From positions 1 to 52,056 of IMG/VR virus record IMGVR_UViG_3300042566_000050: 52,056 nucleotides of DNA. One strand, 5' to 3'. Below, in pieces: positions 11,416 to 38,152 of the stretch. The stretch is from a virus. The position numbers and the translations under genes were made by a program. Each line of letters opens with the position of its first letter. The first letter of the stretch is position 1. The notes under the pieces were generated by a model. It was not told where the DNA came from. It made no database searches and worked only from the letters and a program-made list of their open reading frames with translations.

Positions 11416-11575
11416 GAAGGGGCAGGGGTTCTTTATCCCCTGCCTAGACCATGCCGCCATGCGTGAGCTTGGCTTAAAGAAAGCAGTCCTTTGCCGCATA
11501 CTAGATGCCCGTGCTATCACGGGCATCCACAACGGCTTTACTGGGGTACTGTTCTATCGACCGCCCCGCGCATAG
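11375..11575 (+). CDS. small phage protein, 66 aa
   Basis: A short protein with FPWEKLEKGQGFFIP near the start and GFTGVLFYRPP at the end. That W-x-x-L-x-x-G-x-x-F-F-x-P...YR layout recurs in short phage proteins of unknown function, possibly DNA-binding. It starts inside the primase end and runs 38 bases past the stop of the convergent 2918-residue gene. Two perfect hairpins lie inside it, so its codons are doubly constrained. There is no obvious ribosome site, so translation may depend on coupling to the primase. Confidence 0.6.
   Translation: MKVSSIHFPWEKLEKGQGFFIPCLDHAAMRELGLKKAVLCRILDARAITGIHNGFTGVLFYRPPRA
11421..11444. terminator. perfect 8-bp hairpin just after the primase stop
   Basis: GGCAGGGG (11421-11428) pairs with CCCCTGCC (11437-11444) across an eight-base loop. 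It begins six bases after the primase stop and lies in the convergent zone. No U-run follows on either strand, so a classic intrinsic terminator is not supported. It may slow polymerase, protect RNA 3' ends or act with Rho. Confidence 0.35.
11504..11527. terminator. perfect 10-bp hairpin at the convergent gene junction
   Basis: GATGCCCGTG (11504-11513) pairs perfectly with CACGGGCATC (11518-11527) around a CTAT loop. It lies 11 bases beyond the stop of the 2918-residue gene on the minus strand and inside the 66-residue plus-strand gene. It lacks a U-run in both directions. The position suggests it ends or stabilises the late transcript, with an equal effect on the early transcript. Confidence 0.4.
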
Positions 11576-17500: not shown

Positions 17501-20294
17501 TATAGCGGTCACGAATTTGATCCAGACCTTCTTGGATGGCCATGGCCGCGGCGTAAGGGTTGCCAAATGTACGGCGCCCTTGTGTGCGTGATTCTCTAGA
17601 GGGGTAACCAAAAGGATAGCCAGCTTCGTTAGTAAACTCTCCAGACAGTTCTTGTGCGGGAGTAAGTTGTGGCTCCTTGCTAGTACCCTTGTTATACATG
17701 TCGCGGGTATCGCCAAAGCGTGTAATCAGATCACGCAACTCAATGTTGGCTTCGCGCTCAACAGCAATACGCTCTTGGTCCGTAAGCTTCTGCCCACGCT
17801 CAAACTCAACCTCTTTAACAAGACTGTCAACCACTTTTTGACGGGCGGCATCTAGTTCTTCCTGTTTGGCACGGCCTTTGTTGTAGCGGCTAACAATACG
17901 CACCACATCCGCATACGCTTCTTCACGGGCATCGGCCACAGCTTGGCGCTGGGCAACCTTTTCTGGCATCCGTGTGCCACCAAGCGTAGTCTCCATAGAC
18001 TGCTTGGACTCGTCCAGCATCCGATTAATTTCATCTTCAGGCACGCCTTCAGCTCGCATGCGATCAAGATCAACTTGATCCAACTGGCCTGTTCTGGAAA
18101 TACGGCGGGGTTGCCCTTCAACGCCAAGCTCTGCGGTCAGGCGTTTGATTTCGTCTTGATTACCAGAAGCATAGGCACGGTCCAGCGCTTCCATTTGTTG
18201 TTGGCGCTCACGCTTGGCATCCATGTCAGCCAAGATTTCTTTGAGGCGTGCAATCTCAGGCTTGTTGCGAGAGGCTTGGGCGATCTGCAACTCAGCGGCA
18301 ATACGAGCTCTGGACTTATCCGCGGCGGGCAATGTACCGCGCTGAACACCGCTACGCAAACTGGGGGAGCCAAACAACTCGCCTTGGTCTTGGAACGGCT
18401 GGTTGCGCGGGATGTTCGCCATGTCGGCGACTTCTTTGTCTGTAAAACCTTCGCGGCGCTGTAAGTCAAGCGTATCCAAGTCTTCCAGATAGCTTGTAAC
18501 TCCGGGGGCTCCGGCAGGCGCAACAGGCGGCTTTTCCCCCTGTATTTTTAAATCTTCTGTACGGGCGGCAAATTCTGCCTTAGCTTGCTTGTCTAGTTCT
18601 TTGCCCAACAGTCTGCGCAGAGTGTCTTGCTCATTAGTCTTTAGTCCGGGCAACGGCAGGTTTTGGTCAACAATCAAACGCGCTCTATACGGGTCCTGCA
18701 GAAGATACGCAATGTAGTCGTCCACATGTGCTTGTTTGTTACCCGATGTCTGGCTTTCTGCCAAACGCATACGATCGTTAGCGTATTTAGTAATCTCTTG
18801 CGCAGAAGGCGGCTTCGTTTGCGCTGCGGCCGCTAGTGCTGCTGCCCTCTCTTTGGGCGTTAAAATTTGCTGTTCGTAGTAGCCAATGTTGGCAAGGTCT
18901 GCTGACAGCTCTTCTTGTGTTTTTACAGTGCCTTTCTTTTTTGATTCAGCAACTGTATCGGTCTGCTCCATCATGTAGTCGTATGGAGACATGCCGGCAA
19001 TACGGGCCTTCTCTGCGTCTTTGATAGCTTGTTCTGCAAGCTGTTCACGCATACCCTTGGTGCGGCGGTACTCAGGTGTCAGCTCTTTAAGCTGCTCACG
19101 CAGACTATTGACTTCTGCTTGATTTTCTTTATAGATAGCCCACTCTTCCGGTGTGCCAGTATCTTTGTTAGGTTTCTTAAGCTCACCGCGCTTTTGTTGG
19201 TACTGTGCCAACAATGCCTCGTATCTCTGGCCAAGCTCTGCGGCGTACTCAGGCGTTTGTTTCTGCGCTTCCAGCTTGTCGGCTTCTTCTTGGGCTTTCT
19301 TGGCTTCTTCTTCACGTTGTACGCGAGCTTCTTCTTGCTTGCGCACCATGACTTCACCACGCGCACCAGCACGCTCAGACAAACGACCAGCCGCACCTAT
19401 CGGGGCAAGCAGACCAACTTGGTAAGCAGTCTCTCCGTACTCTTTAAGCGCATCAGCATCAGTCAGGGACAAGCCTGCTTGCGCACGCTCAAGCATCTGC
19501 TGGGTAATCTCTGTTGGGATTTCAGCCAAAGCGCCAGTAGCCGTACCTTTAGCCAAAGTGGCCAGCAGTTTTTCATCTGCCAGTTTTGTAACTTCTGCGG
19601 CAGATTTACCAAGCAGAGCTTTTTCAGGAATGCCTGTGAGCTTACTAACAAGGCGGCCGCCCAAGGGGATCAATGTACCTGCAACGTCCAAGGCAGCTTG
19701 AGGAAGGGCTGCGGCTCCGGCAGCTCCGGTGTCAATTTTTAGTGCTTCGCCACGGGCTTTTTGCTCTGCGGCTTGACGCTCAACGTTACCGCCAAACTGC
19801 TGGAATAAAGAAGGAACTGCCGCGCCTGCAAGACCGCCAACAACCGTACCAACAGGACCAGCTAACGAACCAAGTGCCGCGCCAGCACGAGCAGTACCGA
19901 ATGTGGCCGCAAGGTTAGGCGCTTGTTCCGCAAGTGCCGCAGGGATTTGACTAATGGCTTCGCCAGCGGCTGGCAACAGGCCACGTTCTTCATACGCTTT
20001 CTTAACCTTGTCAAGGCTGACTTGGTCAGCGTATTTTTGGGAAATCTTTTCACCGCGCTCAAGTCCTGCCTGCGCGGCTTCTTCGGCGGAGCCAGTAAGC
20101 GCACCCAACGCGGTACGGCCAGAAGAAATTAAAGACTCAAGGCCTTTGCTTGCCGCGGCCCCAAGGCCTTCTTTTGGTTTGAGCTGTTTATAGTTTGCTT
20201 GAACAAATGCAACAACTTCATCAGGAGATGCGCCGGGAGGGCCCTCTACACTATAAATACGACCATCGGGTCCTTCTACTTTGTATATGGGCAT
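11538..20294 (-). CDS. giant polyvalent (ejected) protein with HExxH peptidase and LPD38-like region
   Basis: A 2918-residue protein, last gene of the late block. It opens with MPIYKVEGPDGRIYSVEGP, an N-terminal module I know from many phage giant proteins. Then come an Ala/Gly-rich, membrane-like stretch (about 125-215), long charged coiled coils (about 1100-1850), and a zinc-peptidase site LHEGVH (H1942, E1943, H1946) with NEFAAEA near 1994-2000 as a likely third ligand. The C-terminal segment of about 2500-2800 (GASPSIHMANSLIPFFNAQ, then LPIPFEIGYIFKALPEAL) resembles the LPD38 domain of polyvalent proteins. Such proteins are packaged and injected with DNA. Its place beside the transglycosylase matches T7 gp14-16. 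No polymerase motifs of an N4-type virion RNA polymerase were seen. AGGA lies about ten bases before ATG. Confidence 0.85.
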   Translation of the reverse strand: MPIYKVEGPDGRIYSVEGPPGASPDEVVAFVQANYKQLKPKEGLGAAASKGLESLISSGRTALGALTGSAEEAAQAGLERGEKISQKYADQVSLDKVKKAYEERGLLPAAGEAISQIPAALAEQAPNLAATFGTARAGAALGSLAGPVGTVVGGLAGAAVPSLFQQFGGNVERQAAEQKARGEALKIDTGAAGAAALPQAALDVAGTLIPLGGRLVSKLTGIPEKALLGKSAAEVTKLADEKLLATLAKGTATGALAEIPTEITQQMLERAQAGLSLTDADALKEYGETAYQVGLLAPIGAAGRLSERAGARGEVMVRKQEEARVQREEEAKKAQEEADKLEAQKQTPEYAAELGQRYEALLAQYQQKRGELKKPNKDTGTPEEWAIYKENQAEVNSLREQLKELTPEYRRTKGMREQLAEQAIKDAEKARIAGMSPYDYMMEQTDTVAESKKKGTVKTQEELSADLANIGYYEQQILTPKERAAALAAAAQTKPPSAQEITKYANDRMRLAESQTSGNKQAHVDDYIAYLLQDPYRARLIVDQNLPLPGLKTNEQDTLRRLLGKELDKQAKAEFAARTEDLKIQGEKPPVAPAGAPGVTSYLEDLDTLDLQRREGFTDKEVADMANIPRNQPFQDQGELFGSPSLRSGVQRGTLPAADKSRARIAAELQIAQASRNKPEIARLKEILADMDAKRERQQQMEALDRAYASGNQDEIKRLTAELGVEGQPRRISRTGQLDQVDLDRMRAEGVPEDEINRMLDESKQSMETTLGGTRMPEKVAQRQAVADAREEAYADVVRIVSRYNKGRAKQEELDAARQKVVDSLVKEVEFERGQKLTDQERIAVEREANIELRDLITRFGDTRDMYNKGTSKEPQLTPAQELSGEFTNEAGYPFGYPSRESRTQGRRTFGNPYAAAMAIQEGLDQIRDRYISPEGPGVTRTYAPETTSPEALLKQLDGTLANDKTSPEVRKLAARIGDNWREVQANAAVGEETALPPSRRGTLPTTLADDISQWLYSVSIGQESKEFRDRVEERLDAIERAKLSETDVQTRETAWGTAAKPVTAIQEDLFSDKEYSGYKFANYAEFDKFLGSDALQQMRSAIGLGRPTLTRLLDRVRVFSNKAAALRKQSDAMVEKYDKIRADKEAQLEQLKQMNAGDLAQQKRELETAQQMLKEAQENQRQLVNRLDSELFGLQAQYIQAATALEFSIKTSEDISKAIAANVNNFTGKEEAALQEVLEAKEKLATAIKQTYMTVHKGEGERLAQQVKEVKEGVTFDEAFRGIKETKKVLAAQQAVIDATTKWRRLYALNQSQSRIVKFLDQDLNLQMQLQAEIAKFDGLSQNMLDAGLALTLAKNTQDRNVQNRTALKKARQEISTAQNLVEESEKRIAEQQADIDKLRSELGVTDYKINHRFSEDSTTGITIRAATDLEKDLVRALGPVADAARNIEKMAQNAINKFMLGRREGFPVTPETQLDRENRDAEVKRIENERNNRLASLEGERISFDKRRKLAEKLNATPEAYADLDATIDQANTELEQLVKDERLINEHLAKAKEDKKWAIANKVELEIYSRNIADYEAMLGDVVSMRGQLEKEKKDAEDAKERLGDAEQTISRIFSNEVEYDLAGNPIQSVAAAVMESAQKRLAKVEENIKNRTTSSQESGISPELRTSRIKELNKAKREKQQLLDKLSAQTGITRKNIQLGTETESVLPGTRLDARKIGPVVKKTVTAGNVRTGDVTTTEERKLSTQNKVTQSGQTRPITSKQAQRQANKDTELQRITDRLNYLEDLDRRNDAALETATAAGDTARVNKLTGNQARIAAEIEAKRDELASLGNITKIQPSTKKLLQLAATSSQGPALKDEVDTEKSAAAIMQNISTSTNDEINRAIAERLKMLLGNTEVRLVDDLRGDNGEAVYGTAASNGSFIELDKTYGLNEQTALHEGVHAGVERVLNLPEDQLTPEQLAAKKELVAIYNALKADKSMPYPELVTSLNEFAAEALTSPKLRTYMQSKPWTLKYMWDAFKSVILRLLGVKTPTNMSEAAIAAVDRLMTKVPRPTEADMTLDQPRLNRARDSEFDDIVDISNKMVARQKTWSESIKVNATGLAFETQLVDRFAGFERLSKVMDKLKGIQMMYYLRMYDQRMNFVAQSAANGALQIVEKVRADGQKEYLIESRPGASLRGVSEILKGASDVMGGADNASRAFTSYMAALRAKRVGLDKLNFSGTITQAELDRVLATVEGNKTIKDVFERARQEYNEYNRGLVNFAVSAGAIRKADAEALLKSNDYIPFYRERNGVVELMIGGENPIRIGNIKEQPYLQELVGGDAPIMDFMVSSVQNTNMMVDMALRNLATKNAVFELKNMDMAKITDKAISGPDVIKFKVDGEDRFAQVDTDRAGVPADILVKGMEGIPTQMPFALRVLAAPASFLRKAVTATPVYAARQLFRDSLAAPLLSGADFFPVTGALRQIGSATKGTLESRGITGGQVFTGGAADITDIMRRIASGKSGWSDFVSKAESISMEADALSRRAQYNSYIKQGLSEMEATYMALESMNFTKRGASPSIHMANSLIPFFNAQIQGLNVLYKSMTGKMPFNERLKVQEKLLTRGLMIAAGTLAYAAMMQDDEAYQNATPEQKYGNWFVRIPGVEEAVRLPIPFEIGYIFKALPEALYNTMVNERGGEQAVQAFRQILLNTIPGGSSFGIPQAMRPAIEAGLGKSFYTGRDIMSPHEQKLLPEAQFRENTSQIAKSIGATAGVSPIILEQLVQGYTGSLGLAFLQAISMPFGKSDSPEKAFKRLSEMPVVGTVFQPNDAGGIINMAYDRMNEFSKVKSTVDDLIERGEKAKALELINTKANEYAAGEIAHDFTSTMGELTQYERAIRASNLTPEQKRERLDEIRKIKIRYADTMRGAVDRTVPQ

Positions 20295-20322: not shown

Positions 20323-22308
20323 TCAACTAACCCCTAAAAACTTAAAGCCTCCGCCACCCGCAGGTGCGGCCTGTTTAGCCATTATAGGTTTAACTCCAGC
20401 ACTTGCATAGATTTGTTCACGAATTCTTTGTTCTTCGCGCATGCGGGCCGTTGGGTCTTGCATGGCCAATATCTTGTTGTTCTTGTCCCAGTTGGCCATG
20501 TAGTCGTTGACTTCTTTTTCAGCTTCAAAAGATATGTTCTTTTCTTTGGCACCGCGCTCAAGTGCGTCTGCGTACGCAGACTGATACCTAGTTTGAGCTT
20601 CTCTGTAGGCTTTTTCTGTTGCTGATTTTTCGCGTTCTTTCTTGTCAGCCAATGCACCAAGTCCAGACTCGCCAGCCGCAACCAAGAAGTTTGGATTCTT
20701 ATTGGCCATCAACCGCAAGCCAAGGGACAAGTAGTCCTCGTCTGAAAGACTGAAACCTTTCTTCTCTGGCACAACTGCTTTAGCAGTTTCAACAACTTTG
20801 TCTTTGACAGGTTCTGACATACCGCCAAACTCGTCAGGGCTAACGGGCTCCATTTTGTTGGGGTTATAGCCAAGGCCAGAAGCCGCAGAAGCCGCGCTAG
20901 CAGAAGCTGCGTCAGAGGGAAAAGCTTCATTGGAAAGGGCGCTTACACGTCCAGCAGCCTGAGCTTTTTGACCAGTTTGAGCTAAGCGTTGTGCTGTTGC
21001 AACATCCACAGCTTCCCGCGCTTGAGATGCCTGTGCAATCTGTGCGGCTTTACTTGGGGCTTCTGCGGCACGGCGTGCTTCAATCATTTTGCGCAGATAC
21101 TCTTGCTCTTCCAATGTAGCGCCAGCAGCCTGTGCGTCTTTGGTAACTTGCTGAGCCGCTTCAAGCGCCTTGATACCACTCTGTTCATTTTTTGCAGCCG
21201 CAAGTTCCGCCGCAGACATGCGTCCTTTAGGCCCTTGCAAAAGACCAATTTTGTCGCCAAGCTTTTCGCCCAACGCAACAATGCCAGAAGACCCAGATTT
21301 AACTGAGCCGACAACAGGTGCCAATGGTGTAGGGGCGTTTAACGTAGTACCAATTTGGCGCTGGGCTTCAAGAGGAATGCCCAACTTGTCAGCCATCCGA
21401 CCAAAGAACGAGTTGGTTTGATCGTAGTTAGAAACAGGCGCAGGTGTTCTTTGACCGGGAATTTGAGAAGCCGCGCTAGTGTCGGCAGGGGCTGCGGCTT
21501 GCTGTTTTTGCGGTGTACCCGCTTGAGCAGAACCAATAGGCAACATAGCAGTCATGCGCTGGGCAATGCTCTTACCGTACTCAACAGTGTCTGGTGCGTT
21601 GGGGTTCTTCGGATCACTTACCGCCACGCCTTTGGCCGCTTTTTGCATACCGCCGGGACCGCCGTAGTAGTAAGCGCCAGCCAACACAGGGTCACCGCCA
21701 GCCGCTTCGTAGCCTTTTTTACCGTAGCGAATACCAGCACGCATGTTGTCCAGCGGCTTGTTGATGTCCATGTCTTTATCCGCCACTTGCTTAAACGTGC
21801 CGGGAAGAATTTGCATAGCGCCATGGGCGTCTCGGTTAGACGTTTTTGCAGTAGTTTTACCGCTGGATTCTTGGGCGTGAAGCGCCTTCAAGAACGCACG
21901 TTCTTTTGGATCGGTGATGCCTTCCATGTCCAAAGCTTTTTCAAACAACTCTGCGCCTGACATCTTGGTAGGGCCGCCCTTAGACATGCGAACCACAGGC
22001 TCGTTGCGTTGAGCAAAGTTAAAGTCATTGTCGTCGTAGCCAGCGATACCGCCATCAGCCATACCGTCAATATTGGGCGCTGGTAGTTGTGCAATACCCA
22101 TCTGATCTACCGCCGCATCGGCTACTTTGGGCATCTGAGCCATTTGGGATTGTGCGGCTTGACGCGTGCGTTTACGGCGGCCATCTTCAGAGATGATTAG
22201 TGGCAACACATACGGGTCGGCCTTGTGCATCATGGCCATTTGTTTCAAGGCCGCGTCAGGCAGTTTTTCTAAACGCGAAAGAATGTTTTCTGAGTTTGGG
22301 AGTGCCAT
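20323..22308 (-). CDS. virion lytic transglycosylase (SLT domain)
   Basis: A 661-residue protein with an SLT/lysozyme-fold domain at about residues 118-220: ALHAQESSGK with catalytic E147, DAHGAMQILPGTF (161-172), DNMRAGIRYGKKGY and DPVLAGAYYYGGPGG. It should cut peptidoglycan during DNA entry. Around it lie a short N-terminal part with GMADGGIAGY and a long A/Q/K-rich coiled C-terminal half that may be the scaffold within the virion. It sits between the Q/A-rich protein and the giant protein, a T7-like order of ejection proteins. It is distinct from the M15 peptidase of the lysis cassette. Confidence 0.88.
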   Translation of the reverse strand: MALPNSENILSRLEKLPDAALKQMAMMHKADPYVLPLIISEDGRRKRTRQAAQSQMAQMPKVADAAVDQMGIAQLPAPNIDGMADGGIAGYDDNDFNFAQRNEPVVRMSKGGPTKMSGAELFEKALDMEGITDPKERAFLKALHAQESSGKTTAKTSNRDAHGAMQILPGTFKQVADKDMDINKPLDNMRAGIRYGKKGYEAAGGDPVLAGAYYYGGPGGMQKAAKGVAVSDPKNPNAPDTVEYGKSIAQRMTAMLPIGSAQAGTPQKQQAAAPADTSAASQIPGQRTPAPVSNYDQTNSFFGRMADKLGIPLEAQRQIGTTLNAPTPLAPVVGSVKSGSSGIVALGEKLGDKIGLLQGPKGRMSAAELAAAKNEQSGIKALEAAQQVTKDAQAAGATLEEQEYLRKMIEARRAAEAPSKAAQIAQASQAREAVDVATAQRLAQTGQKAQAAGRVSALSNEAFPSDAASASAASAASGLGYNPNKMEPVSPDEFGGMSEPVKDKVVETAKAVVPEKKGFSLSDEDYLSLGLRLMANKNPNFLVAAGESGLGALADKKEREKSATEKAYREAQTRYQSAYADALERGAKEKNISFEAEKEVNDYMANWDKNNKILAMQDPTARMREEQRIREQIYASAGVKPIMAKQAAPAGGGGFKFLGVS

Positions 22309-23365: not shown

Positions 23366-25741
23366 TTATGCGGGAAGATGTTTCTCAGAACGTGAGTTGG
23401 CGGCTACTTTGCCCTTACCAACAGTCTTGCCCCGAGCTTTTTGAATGCGGTCCATCATGGCGTACAACTTACGTGCGCCAGCTTCTGTAGAGCCGTTACC
23501 CAGCTCAGACACAATACGTGCGGGCACTACGAACTCACCATCAGCAAGACGTGCGGGGTGTTTCTTACGGCCAATCGTAGCAGGGATGCTGTCAGACACG
23601 CCGTCTCCGGGACCTTTGAGCAAACGGCCACCATCAGAGTAACCGCCCAGTGCACCAAGACCGCCAAGGGCGTAGCGGGGCATCATGCCGCCGTTGGCGT
23701 AGCCCATCAAACCACCGTTGGCATTACCGGCGTAATCGTAGCGGTCTTCGTCAATATTATCGTCACTCTCAGCTTCTATAAATCTGTCGCTACCACCACC
23801 AATGGTACCGGCACCACCATCGTCATTGCCAATGTATGTTGGTTCGCCGGGGTATGAGCCAAACGCGTCTGGCAGGCCTTGTTGTTGCACACTGTCTGTT
23901 TCGCCAGTGTACGTGTTGTTACCGCTGTTTAGCGAGTTGTCACCCGCCATAGAGCCGTCGTAGTATCCCGAGTTGTCAACGTTTTCCCAAGGCTGAACTT
24001 CATATTCTGTGTTGTCATAGGGCTGATCGTATGGATCGCCTTGAGGAGGTGTATAGGGCTGATCGTATGGATCGCCTTGATATGGTACAGGCTCTGGCAC
24101 ACCCGTGTTCCCATAACCGGGCTCGAAGAAGTTTGGATCAACTGGCTCTGGGTCAGGAATATAGGGCGGGTTATACACCGGGTCAGGGTTGTAAGGGTCC
24201 GACGGCTCAGGGTAACGAATAGGGTCAGGCACGTCTGGGTCAGGCTCAAATGGTGGCGGCTCTGGCTCTGGCTCTGGGTAACGAATAGGGTCAGGCACGT
24301 CTGGGTCAGGCTCAAATGGTGGCGGCTCAACTGGCTCAGGCTCGTAAGGTGGCGGCTCCCAAGGCAGTACAGGCTCAGGCTCTGGCTCTGGCTCAGGGTA
24401 GGGGTATGGATCAGGCGGCATAGGCTCAGGATCAGGCTCTGGCTCTGGGTAACGAATAGGGTCAGGATCTGTTGGGTCAGGCTCAAATGGCGGTGGCTCA
24501 ATAGGATCTGGATCAATGTACGTAGGGGGAGTATAGACTCGAGGGGGTGGCGTAGTTGGCGCAGAAGTTGGTTCTGTAACGCCAGTAGTTGGAGTAGTGG
24601 AAGTAGTAGTACCCGTAGTAGGTGTAGGTGTAGGTGTTGGGGCAGGGGGTTGAACTGTTGCCACAGGAGCAACTGCTGAACTAGCTGTATTACCCATCAA
24701 ATAGTCGTACGCATCCTTAGACTGGCCAGACAGGGTGTTAAATCTGGCATACGGATCGTTTGTATTTTGAGCTGGGGCCTGTGCTTGGGCTTGTGCTTGT
24801 GACTGCGCTTGTTGTGCCTGCGCGTATAAAGCGGGGTCTGCTCTTTGTTCTACTTGTTTTAAAAGACTGCGTAAAATGCCGCCGCCGGCGAGCGCCACAA
24901 TACCGCCGCTGGCCATGCCGGGTGGGAGCTGCTGTCCTAGACCTGCTGGGGGTGCGGATGGTGCGGGGGGTGCGGTCTCCCCTTTACGGATAAAGTCAGG
25001 GAACTGACGAGCGCCCCACTCACTGGCCAACACGGGGTCCATTGCTTTGACTGTGCGGGTATTAGCGTCGTATTGGTATGGTCGAATGTATCCCTTATAC
25101 TGGGATGTAGGCATTTTGGTCGTTGTGGGGACCATGGCGTCAGCAATAAACGGAGACGCGGCGGCAAGGCCTGCCTTCCAATTGTCTTTGGCAAATTGTC
25201 CAAACGCAGAAGGGGTGTCCGTAACGGCTTTAAATCCAGCTCCAATTTTGTCTAGGTTTGATGTAGCCGCAGCGTTGGCGGCGGGGGCAGTGGCGGCATT
25301 TTGAAAACCTAAAGCCTGTGCTTGAGCATCTGTCAAAGAGGTTGCTAAATTAGCACTTTGTGCCCCCACAGCATTTGCTCCAGCCCCCATAAATGCTTGG
25401 CCTAGACCTGCACCACCATAAGCACCAAGACCTGCCATCAAGCCTTTAGACAAACTTCCAGTAGCCAAAGCCGTGACGCCGCCGACTGCTAGTCCAGCGC
25501 CTGCGGCACTCATCAAACCAAAACCAGCGGGGCCTAATGCAAAGCCTGCAATCATGGGCAAAAGCTTCTTCAAGAAGCCAGCTTCAGGCAAACCTGTGTC
25601 GGGGTTGATGGTTAGTGAACCGCCATTTTTCATGGCCAATGCCTGCAGACTCGCCACTTCTTCGGGAGTCATGTGAACAAGCATGGAGTCAGAGCCACGC
25701 CCTTTGGTGGCCATGTGGTTGGCTAATACGTGAAGGCTCAT
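23366..25741 (-). CDS. P/E/D-repeat virion protein
   Basis: A 791-residue protein in three parts. The first (about 55-180) is Gly/Ala-rich and hydrophobic (FALGPAGFGLMSAAGAGLAV), possibly membrane-inserting. The middle (about 380-600) is a Pro/Glu/Asp/Tyr-rich repeat including three copies of PPPFEPDP...DPIRYPEP, likely a stiff extended arm. The end (about 700-791) has Gly-rich MGYANGGMMPRYALGG and ADGEFVVPARIVSELGNGS. I recognise this C-terminal piece from other phages' ejection-region proteins. A GAGAGG ribosome site precedes the ATG. It is probably a virion protein delivered with the giant protein. ATG codons at about residues 10 and 20 are possible later starts. Confidence 0.65.
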   Translation of the reverse strand: MSLHVLANHMATKGRGSDSMLVHMTPEEVASLQALAMKNGGSLTINPDTGLPEAGFLKKLLPMIAGFALGPAGFGLMSAAGAGLAVGGVTALATGSLSKGLMAGLGAYGGAGLGQAFMGAGANAVGAQSANLATSLTDAQAQALGFQNAATAPAANAAATSNLDKIGAGFKAVTDTPSAFGQFAKDNWKAGLAAASPFIADAMVPTTTKMPTSQYKGYIRPYQYDANTRTVKAMDPVLASEWGARQFPDFIRKGETAPPAPSAPPAGLGQQLPPGMASGGIVALAGGGILRSLLKQVEQRADPALYAQAQQAQSQAQAQAQAPAQNTNDPYARFNTLSGQSKDAYDYLMGNTASSAVAPVATVQPPAPTPTPTPTTGTTTSTTPTTGVTEPTSAPTTPPPRVYTPPTYIDPDPIEPPPFEPDPTDPDPIRYPEPEPDPEPMPPDPYPYPEPEPEPEPVLPWEPPPYEPEPVEPPPFEPDPDVPDPIRYPEPEPEPPPFEPDPDVPDPIRYPEPSDPYNPDPVYNPPYIPDPEPVDPNFFEPGYGNTGVPEPVPYQGDPYDQPYTPPQGDPYDQPYDNTEYEVQPWENVDNSGYYDGSMAGDNSLNSGNNTYTGETDSVQQQGLPDAFGSYPGEPTYIGNDDGGAGTIGGGSDRFIEAESDDNIDEDRYDYAGNANGGLMGYANGGMMPRYALGGLGALGGYSDGGRLLKGPGDGVSDSIPATIGRKKHPARLADGEFVVPARIVSELGNGSTEAGARKLYAMMDRIQKARGKTVGKGKVAANSRSEKHLPA
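24210..24499. repeat. coding direct repeats, 53 bp, in the P/E/D protein
   Basis: A 53-base block starting GGGTAACGAATAGGGTCAGG occurs exactly at 24210-24262 and 24276-24328 (66-base period, 22 codons), with a diverged third copy at 24447-24499. The repeats keep the reading frame. They could change copy number by slippage or recombination and so vary the length of the protein's proline-rich arm. Confidence 0.85.
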
Positions 25742-30855: not shown

Positions 30856-32454
30856 TTACTCCTTGGCTTTTAACTGCTTTTCCAAAGACACAACACGCTT
30901 GGCCAACTCAACCACAGCCGCAAGCGCGGCGTTGCCGTAAGACACACCAAGCAAGCCATTTCTTTTCTCAACCGCATCGGGCATAACCTTTTGCAACGAA
31001 CCAGCGCCAACACCAACTTGTGTTTGCTGTCTGTCTATACGGTCATAGATGCCGTTTTGTACCTGCGCCAATTGCTCAATGAAGTCGTCAGGGAATCCGC
31101 GCCAGTTCATCTTCAGCGCTTCGTCAGAGTAAGCCGTCACGTTGCCGTTGGAATATAGCGCGCCTGCAGTCAGGGTTGTGCCGTCAAAAGTTAAGTTTCC
31201 AGAGCCAACCGCTGTACCGCCGCTGTTGTAAATAACTTGTCCAGACGAGCCACCAATCGGGCCAGTGGGGCCCGTCGGTCCTGTGGGTCCTGTGGGTCCT
31301 GTGGGGCCAACTCCGCCGGTAGGTCCGGGGGCTCCTGTATTACCAGTCAAACCTGTGGGGCCAGCGGGTCCTGTAGGTCCGGGCGAGCCGTTTGTACCTG
31401 ATGGGCCAGTAGGTCCTGTAGGTCCGGGGGGTCCGGGAACAGTTGAGCCGGGTCCAGTAGGTCCAGTGGGGCCAGTAGGGCCGGGACCGCCAGTCGGTCC
31501 GGGGGGTCCGGCAACAGTTGAAGCAGGGCCTGTGGGTCCAGTCGGTCCAGTAGGGCCGGGAGGTCCGGGAACAGTCGAGCCGGGTCCTGTGGGTCCGGGA
31601 GCACCAGTAGGGCCAGTGGGTCCAGTAGCGCCTTGTGGCACTACAAAGTCAAACACCGCCGCTGACGGAGTGCCTGCGTTTGTAACCGCCGCAGGTCCAG
31701 TAGAAGTTGTGCCAACGGCAACCGTGGCAGCCGCACCGCTTGGCCCAGTGGGTCCCGTAGGTCCGGGGTTGCCCGTAGGTCCGGGGCCACCAGTGGGGCC
31801 GGTAGGACCCGTAGGTCCGGTGGGTCCTGTGGGACCAGTAGGTCCGGGAGCGCCTTGGCCGCCGGGAGACCATGTGCCATCACCACGCCAGTATGTAGCA
31901 GCCGAAGCGTTAGTGCCGCTGTTCAGATTAGTAACGGGCAAGTTACCTGTAACATTTGTAGCAAGGTTGACGAACGTCGTGGCGCTTGTGCCTGTACCGC
32001 CAGATGTGATTGGCAGGGGTGTGCCCAGAGCCAGCGTAGACAAATAGTCGATTTGGTTGCCAACGTCAGTGCCGTTGTTGTAGACCACCGTGCGCTTGCC
32101 AGACGGCACAGACACACCTGTTTGGCCAGAGACCTTGACGGTGATTGCAAAAGAGTCGTTGTTAATAATCAGGTATGGCTTCTGGATTGCGGGGACGTTT
32201 AGCGTACCGGCAGCAGACAAGCATCCTGAAGAGATCACCAAGCACAGCGCCCGAGCATTTTGAGCCGAGGTTGTGTTGGACAGCGTGAGTGTGGCTACGT
32301 TGGTCGTGAAGTTGGCGGAAGTTAGTGTGGCCATACCAACAATGGCTTGCTCAACGGCGGTGCCGATATTGCTGTTGGTTGTCGTGCCCCACACACCCGG
32401 CTGCTCGCCCGTCGTGATTAGCTCAAACTTTAAATTGGAAAAGGTGCTTGGCAT
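30856..32454 (-). CDS. collagen-like tail fibre with S74 chaperone domain
   Basis: A 532-residue fibre. The N-terminal part (1-150; [20 protein letters not shown]) is a virion-attachment module known from other phages. Residues about 199-400 are Gly-x-y repeats, mostly Gly-Pro-Thr, with interruptions, including one of about 40 residues that ends in a VFDFVVPQG stretch. From about 441 it has an S74-type intramolecular chaperone: SDEALKMNW with the Ser and Lys expected of the self-cleaving pair, ending in a coiled coil. The collagen part should form a triple helix and the S74 domain fold it, then cut itself off. It binds the host surface. A dioxygenase gene lies two genes upstream. Confidence 0.88.
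31256..31860. repeat. collagen Gly-Pro-Thr coding repeats
   Basis: About 600 bases of nine-base units that encode Gly-x-y, seen on the plus strand as GGTCCTGTGGGTCCTGTGGG-like runs. The repeat is coding on the minus strand. The opposite strand is also open and would give Gly-Pro-Val repeats, which I take as a mirror effect. Length change by slippage is plausible. Confidence 0.9.
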
Positions 32455-32474
32455 AATTCATTCCTTTGGAATAA

Positions 32475-33440
32475 CTAAGTGTTGTTGATGTCGTCCCAAG
32501 ACGGGTTTTGTGGGGTATCAATCAGCGTCCAGCCTGACGATTGGGGGTTATTAATTACTGCCCACCCGGCGTTTTGCGTAGAGCTAATACCCGTCCAACC
32601 AGCGTTTTGCGTATCCGTAATGTTTACCCATTCGGCATCCATACCGGTCTCAATCTTGAACCAGCCAACAACGACTGTATTTTGCGCCATTTCAATGGCT
32701 TCGGCAATACTTGTTTGAAAGTCTGCGCGAATCTGCAAAACATCTTCTAGTGTTGTGTTTTCTGTGATGCTGAAGTAAAAGCCCTGCGATGCGGTGTTGC
32801 TGTCCGCAGAGTCCAAATTCTCTGTAATAGAGAAGAAAATGTTTAAAACAGCAACCTGCGAGTCGCCCAGCGTAGAGTTCTCAGAAATGGAAGAAACAAA
32901 CTGGGCGGCGATATTTACCACGTCGGCCATATCTACAGCTTCTGTGACGGCCTGCGCAAACTGCGCAGTAATGTCTTCTATCGAGGCTAGATCAGCGTTC
33001 TCTGTAATGGTCTGGCCAAAGTTTGACTGCTGGTTAGAGAAATCGGCAACCTCAAGAATCGGCTCAGAAAGGCTTGCCAAGAACTCTGTGTACACCTCTT
33101 GGCTGTCAGCAATGGCCGAATCTTCCGTGATGGACGAGGCAAAGTCGGCTTGGATTTCAGCGCTGTCGGCAGGCAAAGAGTCCTCAGAGATAGAGAACAA
33201 ATAGGCGTACTGCTCAGTGCTAAAGTCGGCAACGCCCGTGTCTTCGTAGACAAGCGCAAAAAAGTCACCTGCCGTAGCGTCAATATCATCAATTACGCTG
33301 TTCTCTGAAATGCTTTGCAGAAATGCCGAAATCTGAGAGCTGGCATCCGCAGACTCAAATCCCTCGGAAATATCAAAGACAAAAGCGTTCCCGGCTAAGG
33401 AAGCAAATGGAACTTGGGCGAAGCTTGCAAAGCCGAACAC
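32475..33440 (-). CDS. tandem-repeat virion protein (12 x 20 residues + 5 x 11 residues)
   Basis: A 321-residue protein made almost wholly of repeats. Residues 23-263 are twelve units of 20 residues (one of 21) with consensus S-I-(S/T)-E-N-x3-A-D-S-x5-F-x2. Residues about 269-321 are five units of 11 residues, (A)GW-x2-I-x2-T-Q-N, with one Trp each. The first type could stack as a beta-solenoid or helical rod. The Trp type resembles W-x2-I repeats found in other phage virion proteins. It is acidic. It lies between the collagen-like fibre and the hydroxylase, so it is probably a fibre, fibre linker or tail-associated part. Confidence 0.65.
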   Translation of the reverse strand: MFGFASFAQVPFASLAGNAFVFDISEGFESADASSQISAFLQSISENSVIDDIDATAGDFFALVYEDTGVADFSTEQYAYLFSISEDSLPADSAEIQADFASSITEDSAIADSQEVYTEFLASLSEPILEVADFSNQQSNFGQTITENADLASIEDITAQFAQAVTEAVDMADVVNIAAQFVSSISENSTLGDSQVAVLNIFFSITENLDSADSNTASQGFYFSITENTTLEDVLQIRADFQTSIAEAIEMAQNTVVVGWFKIETGMDAEWVNITDTQNAGWTGISSTQNAGWAVINNPQSSGWTLIDTPQNPSWDDINNT

Positions 33441-33449
33441 GGCAAGCTC

Positions 33450-33989
33450 CTATCGGAACCTTGGTCCGTTGAACCAAACAGTTGCTGAATAGCGAATGCC
33501 AGAGAGCACCGGCGTGACGCGGTGTTCAAGAATAGATGGGAACGCAATCATCGTCCCTTTTTGTAACGGTGCGTCGTAGTCGCTGTACAAACGCACTTGG
33601 AACTGCCCGCCTTCAAACTCGTCATTGAGCAGGCAGACCACGGTAATCTTGCGCTCAGTCGGTTTGCCAGAAAGGGTGAAGGTGTCTGTGTGCCATGTGT
33701 AGTGTTGCTCGGGGCCGTACTCAGCCAACTGCACATTCTCACGACCAGTGACATGGTATTCCCAGCCACAGTGTTTATTGGCTTCCATGGCAAACTGCTC
33801 AAGGCGGTCTGTCAGCCAGTAATCTGATCCGCCAAAACGCACGTTGGTGTTGCGCGTTCTGGTGTCTTTTTCGGTTCCCTCTACCCCCATGGTTGCATCA
33901 CGCACTTCGATGCCCGACAACTCTGCAATGGCTTGATTACAGGTGTCGCCGTCCAGTTGACCTAGATACCATAGGGGAAGATGTGCCAT
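33450..33989 (-). CDS. 2-oxoglutarate/Fe(II) dioxygenase (prolyl 4-hydroxylase-like)
   Basis: A 179-residue enzyme of the P4Hc/PKHD type. The iron triad is WHTD (H100, D102) and LEHR (H156), and the 2-oxoglutarate-binding Arg is in SGIRYS (R166). The segment FEGGQFQV and GTMIAFPSILEHRVTPV fit the double-stranded beta-helix. It should hydroxylate proline or a related side chain using oxygen and 2-oxoglutarate. Many phages of aquatic bacteria carry such genes with unknown targets. Here it is close to a collagen-like fibre and a repeat protein, which are possible targets. It ends ten bases before the repeat protein gene and shares its direction. Confidence 0.9.
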   Translation of the reverse strand: MAHLPLWYLGQLDGDTCNQAIAELSGIEVRDATMGVEGTEKDTRTRNTNVRFGGSDYWLTDRLEQFAMEANKHCGWEYHVTGRENVQLAEYGPEQHYTWHTDTFTLSGKPTERKITVVCLLNDEFEGGQFQVRLYSDYDAPLQKGTMIAFPSILEHRVTPVLSGIRYSATVWFNGPRFR

Positions 33990-33991
33990 TC

Positions 33992-34189
33992 TTAGCCTTG
34001 ATTCAAATCAGTAGCTGCTGGTGGGGATAGGCGGATGCTGTTTTGCTGTGCAGCTTGGAAGTCTTGGCCAAGTTTGCTCAGTTTCATGAACAGGTCAATG
34101 CACTCGCCCAGTTGACCAGCGGCCAGCTGCTTCATGATGACGTTGAACTCTGCAACAGTTACTTCTCCAATATTGATCTTATCGTTCAT
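33992..34189 (-). CDS. small helical protein, 65 aa
   Basis: A 65-residue helical protein (VAEFNVIMKQLAAGQLGECI, then DLFMKLSKLGQDFQ) that looks like a two-helix dimer. It has no membrane segment. It lies between the dioxygenase and a poly-Gln protein, all in the fibre block. Similar short proteins sit near fibre genes in other phages, and a fibre-assembly chaperone role is possible but unproven. Confidence 0.55.
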   Translation of the reverse strand: MNDKINIGEVTVAEFNVIMKQLAAGQLGECIDLFMKLSKLGQDFQAAQQNSIRLSPPAATDLNQG

Positions 34190-34201: not shown

Positions 34202-34561
34202 TTAGGAAGTTGGTGGGGTTGGGGGAACTGGGGGAACTGGGGGTGGGTCCCACGGTAACGCAGGTGTTTCTTGCTGCTGTTGTTGTTGCAACGAAAACGA
34301 TACGGCGTTTTGGAACGACTGCATCTGAGCCAAAGGAGTATACTGGTCAATCCAAGCCAAAACTTGCTCTTGTGTTAAATCGGCGTACGGAATAAACGGC
34401 TGCCCCGCTGTGTATGGGACGTAAGTTGTTGCTGGGCAGGTAGCTGTAAAACCATTTTCAGTACCAACTAGGCTCCACGAAACGCCAAAAACAACGTTGG
34501 ACTCGCCGTCAATCTCTTTGTACGCCTGCATACTGATGATGGTTTTTGTGTAGGTAATCAT
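34202..34561 (-). CDS. small phage protein with poly-Gln and poly-Pro end
   Basis: A 119-residue protein. The main part (ENGFTATCPATTYVPYT, then FIPYADLTQEQVLAWIDQY) is a pattern I know from short phage proteins near tail fibre genes, with function unknown. The end has seven Gln in a row or nearly so and then a Pro-rich tail (PPPVPPVPPTPPTS), which could bind or act as a flexible linker. It lies directly downstream of the large fibre gene in the same direction. Confidence 0.6.
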   Translation of the reverse strand: MITYTKTIISMQAYKEIDGESNVVFGVSWSLVGTENGFTATCPATTYVPYTAGQPFIPYADLTQEQVLAWIDQYTPLAQMQSFQNAVSFSLQQQQQQETPALPWDPPPVPPVPPTPPTS

Positions 34562-34570
34562 AGCTTTCCT

Positions 34571-37500
34571 TTAGTTACATTTTGCCACAAGCGCCTCAAG
34601 AGCGGCAATCCGTTTATCTTGCTCAAGCACACGTTTGGCAAGTTGAATAGCTGCGACCAAAGCAGCGCCGCCGTAGTTAACAGACATTTTATCGTGCTCA
34701 TCTGTTGGCGCAGAGTATGGTAGAAGTGTGTGTAACGACTGGGCAGATACACCGTCTTGGGTAAGTTCAATATCTGTGCGGTCGTAGGTGCCGTGTTTTA
34801 CTTCAGCAAGTTGCTCAACAAAGTCAGCGGGGTAATCTCGCCAGTTTGTCTTTACGCGCTCATCAGAGTAGGCAACAACGTTACCTTCCGAATAAACGCC
34901 TTTAATGACATAAATACCGTACGAAGAAGACGTTGCTGACGTGCCAATACCCATGCAGTTGTTGCTAAGGTTGTGATAAAAATACCATCTGCCATTGGCT
35001 TCTCGGTACACACCGCCGTTACCTGCGCTGTCGTACATAAATCCAGCCACAGAGCTGTACGTATCAAAAATGCCGCTGTAACCGTTTCTACTACCGGATA
35101 TTGCCCAAGTGGTGTATGTAGATGCGTTGTTAGGATACCAATGAGCCCCGTTTGCACTGGGTGCGTACAAGCCAAAGAAACCGTTTAGTTGCAGCCAAGT
35201 ATCAACTTGGTTGTACGTACTACCGCGCTGCCCAACAAATGTGCTCGCCGCGTAGCCCCCTAGTTGGTCCGAAGTACGCGTAGAATCTACACGAAGTCCG
35301 TATGTGCTACCGCCGTTCCAACCCATCAAAGTCGGGTACGTCGCAGACCAATTAACTGCTGGGTTTGTGTTGTTACAACCACTACCGCTAGGTGTAGTGC
35401 TTTGGGATGCGTCAAAAATAACGTGGCTGTTGCCGTAGTTTTTCCACGCAAGCATTCCTACGACATTATTGATAACAGTGTTATCGTTCCAGCTAGACTG
35501 CCCGCGAGCCGGGACTGCGTAACTAGAAACATTGCCTGCGGTGAGAACTTGACTGCCACCTTGTTGAAGCGCTCCGCTAGTAACGTTGACTGTGCTGCCT
35601 GAAATTTGCAGGTTGGATGCGCTGCCTGCAATATTTAAAGTTGCGTATGTTCCGGAGTCTCGGCTGTAGCAAAGAACATAGCCTTGGCCCCCACTAACGC
35701 CTACTTCAGTTGCAAGCGCCGTAGATGCACCACCTGCGTACCACCCAGTAAAACGACCTTGCCCGGTGGTTGATATGTCTCCAGAAAATGCTCGCTGAGA
35801 AGTGGTAGTCGAATTACCACTCAACGAACCAGAAAAAGTTGGTGCTGTTACCGTTCCCCCAAATCTTGCAGCCCCGTCACTAGAACGAATTTCAGCAACA
35901 ACAGTAGGTTGGCCAGTAGCTGAACCTGACTCAAAAGTCCAACCGTAATTCGCAACGTTTTCAATAAAACTACGAAGCGCCCAACTTGTTACAAGCGTTC
36001 CGCTTGGAGCTGTGATGTTGCCGGTCGGCCCTGCGCCGGTTGCTCCAGCGGGAGACATGTAATCAGCCCACGCCGTATAACTACCTGAATACCAGCTAAG
36101 GCCAGATTGGGCAGTTCCGGCACGGTTAAGGTAGTGTTGTGGCGCAGTTAACGCTCCGCTAAAAGCACCCGTAGTTGCGGCAAGATTTGTCGCGCTTAAA
36201 GTTCCACTGCTTGAAGTAATTGTTACCGCCGCGCAAGAATACGCTCGTGAAGACCCCGCATAAGGGCCAACTGCACCTTCATTTGCAAGCCAACAAACCG
36301 GATAAGTCGCACTATCTGTGCGGCCAAAGTATGCTTGCAAAAGACCAGCAATAGTAGCTGAGCTAGCCGTACCCGCAGAACCAGCAGCCCCTGTAATATT
36401 AATACCCCAAGTACCAGAAGCACCACCGCCTGTTAATGTTGGGCTAAAGTTGTTGTAGTTGTTGCTGTTTAGATAGCGTACCCAGCTAGACCATGTACCG
36501 GCGTAACGCCCCCGCATGAACAGCTCATTTGCGGGTGAGGCATAAGCAATAGCCATTTGCGTAATTTGGCCAGTGCCATCATTACTTGCATATTCAATGT
36601 TAAATGGGTGGTAGTAGTTACCACCGCCGGGGCCATTTGATGCAGTGCCCAGCAAAAGAGTAGTGCCCACGCCGGGAATGGTATTAGACGAATCATCCCA
36701 GTTTAGTACGCCGCCAGTACTTGTGGTGGCAAACAACCACTTAGAAAACGACGTAGATGCAGGGACAGTTGTCGCACTTGTTTTACCAGCAGTAGTTGCA
36801 CTCGCAGCGCTACCGGTGATGTTGATGCCCCAAGTACCAGAAGCCCCTGTACCGGTTAGTGTAGGCGCGTAGGAGTTGAAGTTGTTTGAAGTAAGAACAA
36901 CGCCGTTGTTATATCTCAGCGAACCAGAACCATCCCCGGAATTGATATCAAGGTTACCGCCTGTAGCGCGTATGTTCCAAGAGCGAGTGCCTGATTGGTC
37001 AAACCTTAAAAAGTTGCCGCCAAGTTGGAGATCTCCAGTCAAAGCTCCGCCAGAAAGCGGTAAATAGTTAGCCGCAGTTGTAGCCGTAGCCGCATTGCCC
37101 GTAATATTTATACCCCAAGTACCGCTAGCGCCTGAACCTGTTGTTGATGGAACATTCAAACTAGACTGCGCACCCGCCGCAGTGGTCGCGCCAGTACCAC
37201 CAGCCGTGACAGGCAGAGTGCCAGAGGTTAGTGTTGAAGAGCTGTTAGCGTAAACTGCGCCGCCGCTTGTGTAGCTTGTGAGACCTGTGCCGCCGTAGCC
37301 TGTGGCAATCGTGCCGCCCTGCCATGTGCCGCCAGAGATAATCGACGTGCCAAGATTAAAAGCGTTTGTGCCAAAAGTTACGCCTTCTGGGAGATACGCG
37401 TGAAGGTCCCAAGTCCCGCCAGTTGTGCTGTTGAGTGTTAAAAAGACTGCGCTCGCACCGCCACTAGGAATAGTTCCAATAGTGGTACCCGCAAAATTTG

Positions 37501-38152
37501 CAAGAGTTAGTGTGCCTGTTGCTAGGTTGTTAAAAACAAACGCTACCCCTGTTGTCAGAGTGGTTGCGTCAGGTAGCGTGTAAGTCTGGCCGCCAGTCCC
37601 AACAAGAGTATGGATATAGCTTGATGCCGCCGTCAGTGCGGTGGTCCCACCAGCAGCCGTTGTGTTTGTGTTTGACTGGTTTACTCTGTTGACCGCAATG
37701 TTTTGATTGCTATCACGCAGCACCACAGAGTTTGCGCCAGAAGAAGTAGTTACACCTGTGCCACCATAAGCTACGCCAACGGTTGAGCCTTGCCATACAC
37801 CAGACGACACTGTGCCCAGAGGACTGACGTTGTCGCTTGCATCCAGATTGACAGACTTCTCTGCGGGGTATGTCAGGAAAATGCTCTTTGTTCCAGCCGC
37901 CAATGTGATTGGCGAAGTGTTGCCGCTGGAGTTAGACAGAACCGTAGTACGCGCAAGCGTGGGGCCAGACGTAGAGTACGTACCAATACCCACTTCCCAT
38001 GCAGAACCGTCTACGATGGTGTAGTAGCAAGTATTCCCATTGCCAACGACGGCAAACGACTGAAAGCCGGGGACAGCACCGGCCAGCGTTACTGAGCCAG
38101 TGCCTGTTGTTGTCGTTGTCTCTTGGACACGATCAAAAAGTGCCAGAGCCAT
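34571..38152 (-). CDS. large tail fibre with S74 chaperone domain
   Basis: A 1193-residue fibre. Residues 1-100 (ALALFDRVQETTTTTGTGSV, later GWEVGIGTY-like WEVGIGTYST) are a virion-attachment module seen in other phages. The body is Gly/Ser/Thr-rich, with three copies of GASGTWGINITG at about 342, 435 and 577, which are typical of trimeric beta-helix fibres. From about 1090 it has an S74-type chaperone (SDERVKTNWRDYPADFVEQL), clearly related to that of the collagen-like fibre. Ser and Lys of the self-cleavage pair are present. It should be the main receptor-binding fibre and mature by self-cut. Confidence 0.88.
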   Translation of the reverse strand: MALALFDRVQETTTTTGTGSVTLAGAVPGFQSFAVVGNGNTCYYTIVDGSAWEVGIGTYSTSGPTLARTTVLSNSSGNTSPITLAAGTKSIFLTYPAEKSVNLDASDNVSPLGTVSSGVWQGSTVGVAYGGTGVTTSSGANSVVLRDSNQNIAVNRVNQSNTNTTAAGGTTALTAASSYIHTLVGTGGQTYTLPDATTLTTGVAFVFNNLATGTLTLANFAGTTIGTIPSGGASAVFLTLNSTTGGTWDLHAYLPEGVTFGTNAFNLGTSIISGGTWQGGTIATGYGGTGLTSYTSGGAVYANSSSTLTSGTLPVTAGGTGATTAAGAQSSLNVPSTTGSGASGTWGINITGNAATATTAANYLPLSGGALTGDLQLGGNFLRFDQSGTRSWNIRATGGNLDINSGDGSGSLRYNNGVVLTSNNFNSYAPTLTGTGASGTWGINITGSAASATTAGKTSATTVPASTSFSKWLFATTSTGGVLNWDDSSNTIPGVGTTLLLGTASNGPGGGNYYHPFNIEYASNDGTGQITQMAIAYASPANELFMRGRYAGTWSSWVRYLNSNNYNNFSPTLTGGGASGTWGINITGAAGSAGTASSATIAGLLQAYFGRTDSATYPVCWLANEGAVGPYAGSSRAYSCAAVTITSSSGTLSATNLAATTGAFSGALTAPQHYLNRAGTAQSGLSWYSGSYTAWADYMSPAGATGAGPTGNITAPSGTLVTSWALRSFIENVANYGWTFESGSATGQPTVVAEIRSSDGAARFGGTVTAPTFSGSLSGNSTTTSQRAFSGDISTTGQGRFTGWYAGGASTALATEVGVSGGQGYVLCYSRDSGTYATLNIAGSASNLQISGSTVNVTSGALQQGGSQVLTAGNVSSYAVPARGQSSWNDNTVINNVVGMLAWKNYGNSHVIFDASQSTTPSGSGCNNTNPAVNWSATYPTLMGWNGGSTYGLRVDSTRTSDQLGGYAASTFVGQRGSTYNQVDTWLQLNGFFGLYAPSANGAHWYPNNASTYTTWAISGSRNGYSGIFDTYSSVAGFMYDSAGNGGVYREANGRWYFYHNLSNNCMGIGTSATSSSYGIYVIKGVYSEGNVVAYSDERVKTNWRDYPADFVEQLAEVKHGTYDRTDIELTQDGVSAQSLHTLLPYSAPTDEHDKMSVNYGGAALVAAIQLAKRVLEQDKRIAALEALVAKCN

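Follow-up and report, generated by a model that had tools for sequence, protein, structure and literature searches.

A predicted phage prolyl hydroxylase and its probable substrate, a collagen-like tail fibre encoded nearby

Results

We studied two closely spaced genes of an entire IMG/VR virus record (IMGVR_UViG_3300042566_000050), whose 52,056 bases are here called the window: a gene for a 2-oxoglutarate (2OG)- and Fe(II)-dependent oxygenase (33450..33989, minus strand) and a gene for a collagen-like tail fibre (30856..32454, minus strand). Since polymerase, primase, terminase, portal and SU10-like adaptor genes were recognised in the record, the window belongs to a tailed phage. According to a first-pass annotation of this DNA, the fibre may be modified by the phage itself. 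The two open reading frames (ORFs) were indeed confirmed on the same strand, as it had stated; the fibre, however, does not lie two genes away from the enzyme, because a single gene intervenes, which encodes an acidic repeat protein of 321 residues (32475..33440, minus strand). In the order of transcription on the minus strand, the region comprises a second tail fibre (34571..38152), a DUF7936 protein, an ORF of 65 residues, the oxygenase, the repeat protein and the collagen-like fibre.

The oxygenase consists of 179 residues in a single domain. Its sole Pfam match was PF13640 (E 3.4e-18, 66.8 bits, cut-off 27), and its best PHROG was phrog_61, '2OG-Fe(II) oxygenase' (E 1e-30). Residues 100, 102, 156 and 166 are His, Asp, His and Arg, as had been noted before; H100, D102 and H156 were invariant among 23 homologues and R166 was at least 90% conserved. 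Two further residues, R113 before the core strand and W172 after the distal His, were also invariant in this set. In the alignment, the Bacillus anthracis prolyl 4-hydroxylase (P4H; 3itq) has Arg and Trp at these two positions, whereas PiuC and Sbal_3634 have Asp in place of the Arg. The AlphaFold2 model based on the 23 homologues had a mean pLDDT of 88.9 and a pTM of 0.86. When it was compared with the PDB using Foldseek, the matches were, in order of rank, the Pseudomonas putida prolyl hydroxylase (template-modelling (TM) score 0.77), the Dictyostelium hypoxia-sensing hydroxylase (PHD), the viral collagen prolyl hydroxylase of Paramecium bursaria Chlorella virus-1 (PBCV-1) and PHD2, and all of the top 30 were peptidyl prolyl hydroxylases. 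The iron triad, the basic 2OG residue and the modelled fold place the product in the 2OG-Fe(II) oxygenase superfamily (PF13640), and its fold and sequence are of the peptidyl prolyl hydroxylase (P4H/PHD) type, with prolyl hydroxylation as the predicted activity.

Three other assignments were considered. Sequence profiles ranked PKHD enzymes (E 2e-17) slightly above the B. anthracis P4H (E 9e-14); several P4Hs matched at E 1e-7 to 1e-13. As the PKHD homology is limited to residues ~90-178, the Arg at position 113 is not Asp and the fold match is lower (TM 0.62), we rejected a PKHD-type (PiuC/YbiX) identity. The α2β2 type of the animal collagen P4H was rejected as well: only the catalytic domain was recognised in the 179 residues, the peptide-binding domain of the animal enzyme is lacking, and no search was made for a partner subunit elsewhere. 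Finally, no relative of the oxygenase turned up when bacterial and archaeal genomes were searched with the single sequence, and a search of these genomes with the family alignment retrieved only matches of 27-37% identity in three metagenome-assembled genomes. A bacterial origin of the enzyme was therefore rejected.

The fibre (532 residues) matched Pfam Collagen (E 7e-14) and several tail-fibre PHROGs. It is composed of an N-terminal anchor (residues ~1-180), a Gly-X-Y shaft (residues 198-403; 31246..31863, minus strand), which is the presumed substrate, and a putative C-terminal S74-type chaperone domain (~427-532) with the motif S-D-x-x-x-K. The C-terminus scored 19.6 bits with Peptidase_S74, under the cut-off of 22, and PHROG long-tail-fibre C-termini matched residues 402-529. 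The repeat region does span the roughly 200 residues reported earlier; its uninterrupted part, however, amounts to no more than 54 triplets (162 residues), distributed over five tracts. Most of them are Gly-Pro-Thr (GPT; 29/54) with Pro at X (39/54), in agreement with the first-pass annotation. Prolines at Y had been thought to be confined to a few Gly-Pro-Pro triplets; instead, they occur in 10 of the 54 (GPP 3, GAP 3, GGP 2, GNP 1, GSP 1). Lys is absent from the tracts, and lysyl hydroxylation was rejected for this phage. The presence of a Gly-X-Y shaft in a tail-fibre gene identifies the product as a collagen-like tail fibre, and its folding into a triple helix is predicted.

The linkage of enzyme and collagen genes was then counted across phages, using loci with at least 4 kb on both flanks and scoring Gly-X-Y proteins within 4 kb. 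With the enzyme alone as the query, viral contigs yielded 80 loci with 50-98% identity (the window family). A Gly-X-Y protein was present in 33/33 full-flank loci and was Pro-rich in 31; after clustering of the enzymes at 90% identity, every one of the 39 clusters had a Gly-X-Y neighbour. A second enzyme family gave 21/22, and the exception (L746) has a Gly-Pro-Thr tract ~4.1 kb away. Among relatives, the collagen tract is found variously after the enzyme gene, before it or on either side of it, showing that the pairing survives rearrangement. As the enzyme directly adjoins the collagen fibre in the relative L006, the 321-residue repeat protein is not needed for the pairing. Conversely, when phage relatives were fetched via the tube protein, the gene of which is unrelated to the enzyme, those without the enzyme but with the region covered had a Gly-X-Y tract in 0/21 cases, and 19 of these 21 retained a homologous fibre anchor (~30-38% identity) with a different shaft. 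Thus, enzyme and Pro-rich Gly-X-Y gene are tightly linked across phages in two enzyme families. The earlier annotation had named co-occurrence in related phages as a check on its idea; dioxygenases equally frequent without a collagen-like gene were not what these counts revealed.

We also fetched unrelated viral contigs by collagen codons alone, 50 per pattern. PF13640 was found in 16/50 contigs with (GPT)5, in 3/50 of the (GAT)5 controls and in 5/50 of the controls fetched by 15 Gly-X-Y triplets of any kind (Fisher p = 0.002 for GPT vs GAT and 0.0003 for GPT vs both controls); the (GPP)4 contigs gave 8/50. In the (GPT)5 set, a PF13640 gene was located within 2 kb on the same strand in 12 of the 16, where 2.9 were expected (p ~8e-8). 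Adjacency was mixed in the (GPP)4 contigs, several of whose pattern matches were not real Gly-X-Y tracts.

In the enzyme tree, the window family formed its own branch, all members of which are collagen-linked (98 in the Shimodaira-Hasegawa-like approximate likelihood ratio test, SH-aLRT), apart from the uvsW-linked oxygenases. Among distant PF13640 loci (L013-L067), 4/55 had a Gly-X-Y ORF on the fetched stretch, with Pro nowhere or, in one, solely at Y; in regions from phage records, mostly of cyanophages (L408-L418), no Gly-X-Y tract was found within 2.5 kb (0/11). We thus rejected collagen linkage as a general rule for PF13640 genes of phages: since distant oxygenases of the same Pfam family have no such link, the linkage is not a property of the superfamily.

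Triplet composition was compared without regard to shared ancestry. GPT accounted for 53% of triplets beside the window family and 42% beside the second family, whereas general viral collagens lacking the enzyme had 6% (p = 1e-14 and 5e-11, respectively). For Pro at Y, the share was 12% next to the window family, 2% next to the second family and 1% in GPT collagens without the enzyme (window family vs the latter, p = 1e-8). The classic X-Pro-Gly site is therefore far commoner beside the window family than beside the second, which suggests from sequence that the two enzyme families differ in positional preference.

Regarding the other genes of the region, the 321-residue protein has degenerate acidic repeats (SITENxxLADxxN) followed by a C-terminal run of W-x-x-I-x-x-x-Q-N-A-G-W repeats. 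It had no Pfam or PHROG match, and in many relatives it is conserved next to the enzyme. The 65-residue ORF (33992..34189, minus strand), which immediately precedes the enzyme gene, is kept in enzyme-bearing relatives and in the enzyme-less L076. It is preceded by the DUF7936 protein (34202..34561, minus strand; PF25590, E 3e-13) with a Pro-rich tail (PPPVPPVPPTPPTS). The second tail fibre (34571..38152, minus strand; 1193 residues) is not collagen-like, its C-terminal domain is homologous to that of the collagen fibre, and its position holds a collagen tract in some relatives, e.g. L220 and L270. Elsewhere on the minus strand, a giant ORF of 2918 residues (11538..20294) has an LPD38 polyvalent-protein domain near its C-terminus, and its neighbour (20323..22308) a transglycosylase SLT domain. 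A protein of 791 residues (23366..25741, minus strand) has a striking Pro/Glu/Asp-rich linker with repeats such as PEPEPEP and EPPPFEPDPDVPDPIRYPEPEP.

Some phages carry more than one such oxygenase. In Synechococcus phage S-SCSM1 (L412, 7830-10247), two 2OG oxygenases flank a predicted protein O-fucosyltransferase and are followed by genes for GDP-fucose synthesis, possibly forming a hydroxylate-then-glycosylate cassette. Two single phage contigs (L282 and L421) have at least six different 2OG-Fe(II) oxygenase genes each.

Discussion

We consider it likely that the product of the gene at 33450-33989 is a prolyl hydroxylase whose dedicated target is the phage's own collagen-like fibre, with collagen proline as the putative substrate. 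The idea of the first-pass annotation is thus supported by the co-occurrence of the two genes, by the 0/21 among enzyme-less relatives and by the predicted prolyl-hydroxylase fold. The small stand-alone enzyme would use Fe(II), O2 and 2-oxoglutarate to hydroxylate prolines of the Gly-Pro-Thr/Gly-X-Pro shaft; peptides fitting its expected substrates would be (GPT)n and GPTGSPGPTGAP. Hydroxylation would take place in the infected cell on nascent chains before they wind, the C-terminal S74-type domain would bring three chains together in register, and the hydroxyprolines would raise the triple-helix stability of the shaft. We infer that hydroxyproline, be it of the 3- or 4-type and at X, at Y or at both, would probably stabilise the helix of the fibre.

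Several observations weigh against this assignment. Proline sits at X in most triplets, and the classic site is Y. The earlier annotation had raised this caveat, which is real; it is nevertheless weaker than stated, given the frequency of Y prolines beside the window family (12% vs 1%) and the report that the B. anthracis P4H acts on collagen-like peptides at both X and Y, with Y favoured (PMC8968730). Hydroxyproline at X, moreover, can stabilise the helix according to the title of Bann and Bachinger (2000), as cited in PMC13125179. No PF13640 gene was detected in 34 of the 50 (GPT)5 contigs, which are partial. PF13759 was rejected as the substitute, being present in 1/34 only. Presumably, some of these fibres can do without hydroxylation, or the contigs are incomplete. 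PhoH, which served as a control accessory gene, was slightly commoner in the GPT set (4/50 vs 0/50), which may point to a general enrichment of accessory genes in that set. On the enzyme tree, the collagen-neighbour label had to change 13 times, with at least 8 of the changes forced by supported branches; this means that the pairing is recurrent, yet that independent events are far fewer than loci and that relatedness inflates the counts. The seeds of the second family came from loci found through the Gly-Pro-Thr pattern, so that sequences closely related to them do not count as wholly independent. Finally, in the window-family loci L806 and L807, the Gly-X-Y neighbour is dominated by GYS/GFS/GIS and has few prolines. 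These two loci are useful for asking whether their few GPT triplets suffice.

Other substrates have to be weighed against the fibre. The tandem-repeat protein at 32475-33440, which the first-pass annotation had offered as a possible target, is an unlikely one, because it has 6 Pro and no Gly-Pro or Pro-Gly; it was rejected also since it does not lie between the two genes in L006. The enzyme might instead hydroxylate a target in the host, for example EF-Tu or a ribosomal protein, its proximity to the fibre being due to chance or to the clustering of accessory genes. The best single PDB fold is indeed that of 4iw3, in which the P. putida prolyl hydroxylase was solved together with EF-Tu, and accessory genes are frequent in fibre regions. 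A host target would, however, leave unexplained why two enzyme families are almost universally linked to Gly-X-Y genes, why Pro-rich collagens are preferred over Gly-Ala-Thr ones and why enzyme and collagen are jointly absent from relatives with the same anchor, and we regard it as unlikely. We give somewhat less credence to other Pro-rich phage proteins, namely the DUF7936 tail or the Pro/Glu-rich linker of the 791-residue protein. By analogy, the algal virus enzyme acts on Pro-rich repeats, and the 791-residue protein has 14.5% Pro; the Pro content of proteins of this type was 0.079-0.145 in the three enzyme-bearing phages compared and mostly 0.04-0.08 in enzyme-less ones. Nevertheless, the enzyme-less relative L125 likewise reaches 14.3% Pro, the same kind of Pro-rich DUF7936 tail is present in the enzyme-less L076, and in unrelated phages the linkage is to collagens.

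It is also conceivable, though very improbable, that the enzyme acts on the fibre without a role in helix stability, for example by providing hydroxyproline as a sugar attachment site or by hydroxylating another residue. Plant hydroxyproline carries sugars, and in S-SCSM1 2OG oxygenases are encoded beside an O-fucosyltransferase. On the other hand, no glycosyltransferase was recognised among the scanned genes of the window's fibre region, which are not all of its ORFs, the nearest folds are prolyl hydroxylases, and the Lys-free tracts exclude lysyl hydroxylation. Least probable of all is a 2OG oxygenase directed at DNA, RNA or small molecules, a role suggested for cyanophage homologues that adjoin uvsW/uvsY. 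Cyanophage oxygenases are indeed the nearest among annotated phage records, one of them being flanked by uvsY and uvsW, and a role in DNA repair has been proposed for these (PMC2984593); but the window family stands on its collagen-linked branch away from the uvsW-linked enzymes, its best folds are peptide hydroxylases and no repair gene was among the scanned genes beside the enzyme.

Returning to the fibre as the probable substrate, a broader proposal may be advanced tentatively, as a serious possibility that we would stop short of calling probable: dedicated phage enzymes may hydroxylate the X proline of Gly-Pro-Thr to give a Gly-hydroxyproline (Hyp)-Thr collagen. The window family would in addition modify Y (Ser/Ala-Pro-Gly), whereas the second family would be confined to X. 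Collagen would thus be stabilised in a second way, and one common among environmental phages. The peptides studied by Bann and Bachinger were reportedly of the Gly-Hyp-Thr kind.

According to a study of phage collagens (PMC3368898), the prolyl hydroxylases responsible for stabilising animal collagen are missing from bacteria and viruses. A study of the Baltic Sea lists viral prolyl 4-hydroxylases, the use of which 'remains cryptic', and notes collagen in tail fibres (PMC9301287). In the open-access literature, which leaves aside subscription papers that could not be searched, no account came to light in which enzyme families of phages are linked to collagen-like fibres. If the assignment is correct, phages probably harden their own collagen as animals do, and small single-domain enzymes with natural substrates would be at hand for the production of hydroxylated collagen in bacteria. 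Two enzyme families tied to Pro-rich collagen-like fibres also suggest a concrete, testable structural role for common 'auxiliary metabolic genes'.

Among known systems, the collagen-like phage tail fibres (phrog_819, phrog_5073, phrog_1806) share the Gly-X-Y shaft but are described as being without prolyl hydroxylation (PMC3368898). The cyanophage oxygenases belong to the same PHROG family (phrog_61), with 27-37% identity over most of the length, but are not collagen-linked in the 11 phage-record regions, and some lie amid replication and repair genes. PiuC and Sbal_3634 are the best profile match in the catalytic half, from which the window enzyme differs in the residues and fold described above; these PKHD-type enzymes carry an iron-uptake annotation. 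The P. putida enzyme PPHD (4iw3, 4j25) is the best fold match but has 23% identity, and its solved partner is EF-Tu; it is not known to be linked to collagen. The B. anthracis P4H (3itq, 5hv0) is likewise prokaryotic and single-domain, with a profile match over nearly the full length, but it is bacterial, its 2OG-binding position is Lys instead of Arg in the alignment, and the literature consulted does not establish a native collagen target for it. A virus-encoded collagen prolyl hydroxylase is already known from the algal virus PBCV-1 (vCPH; 5c5t, 5c5u). Although vCPH has 19% identity, comes from a virus of a eukaryotic alga and is described in the literature consulted without a pairing with an adjacent viral collagen-like fibre gene, it is, like the window enzyme, a small single-domain viral 2OG oxygenase of the prolyl-hydroxylase fold (TM 0.70, profile E 3e-12).

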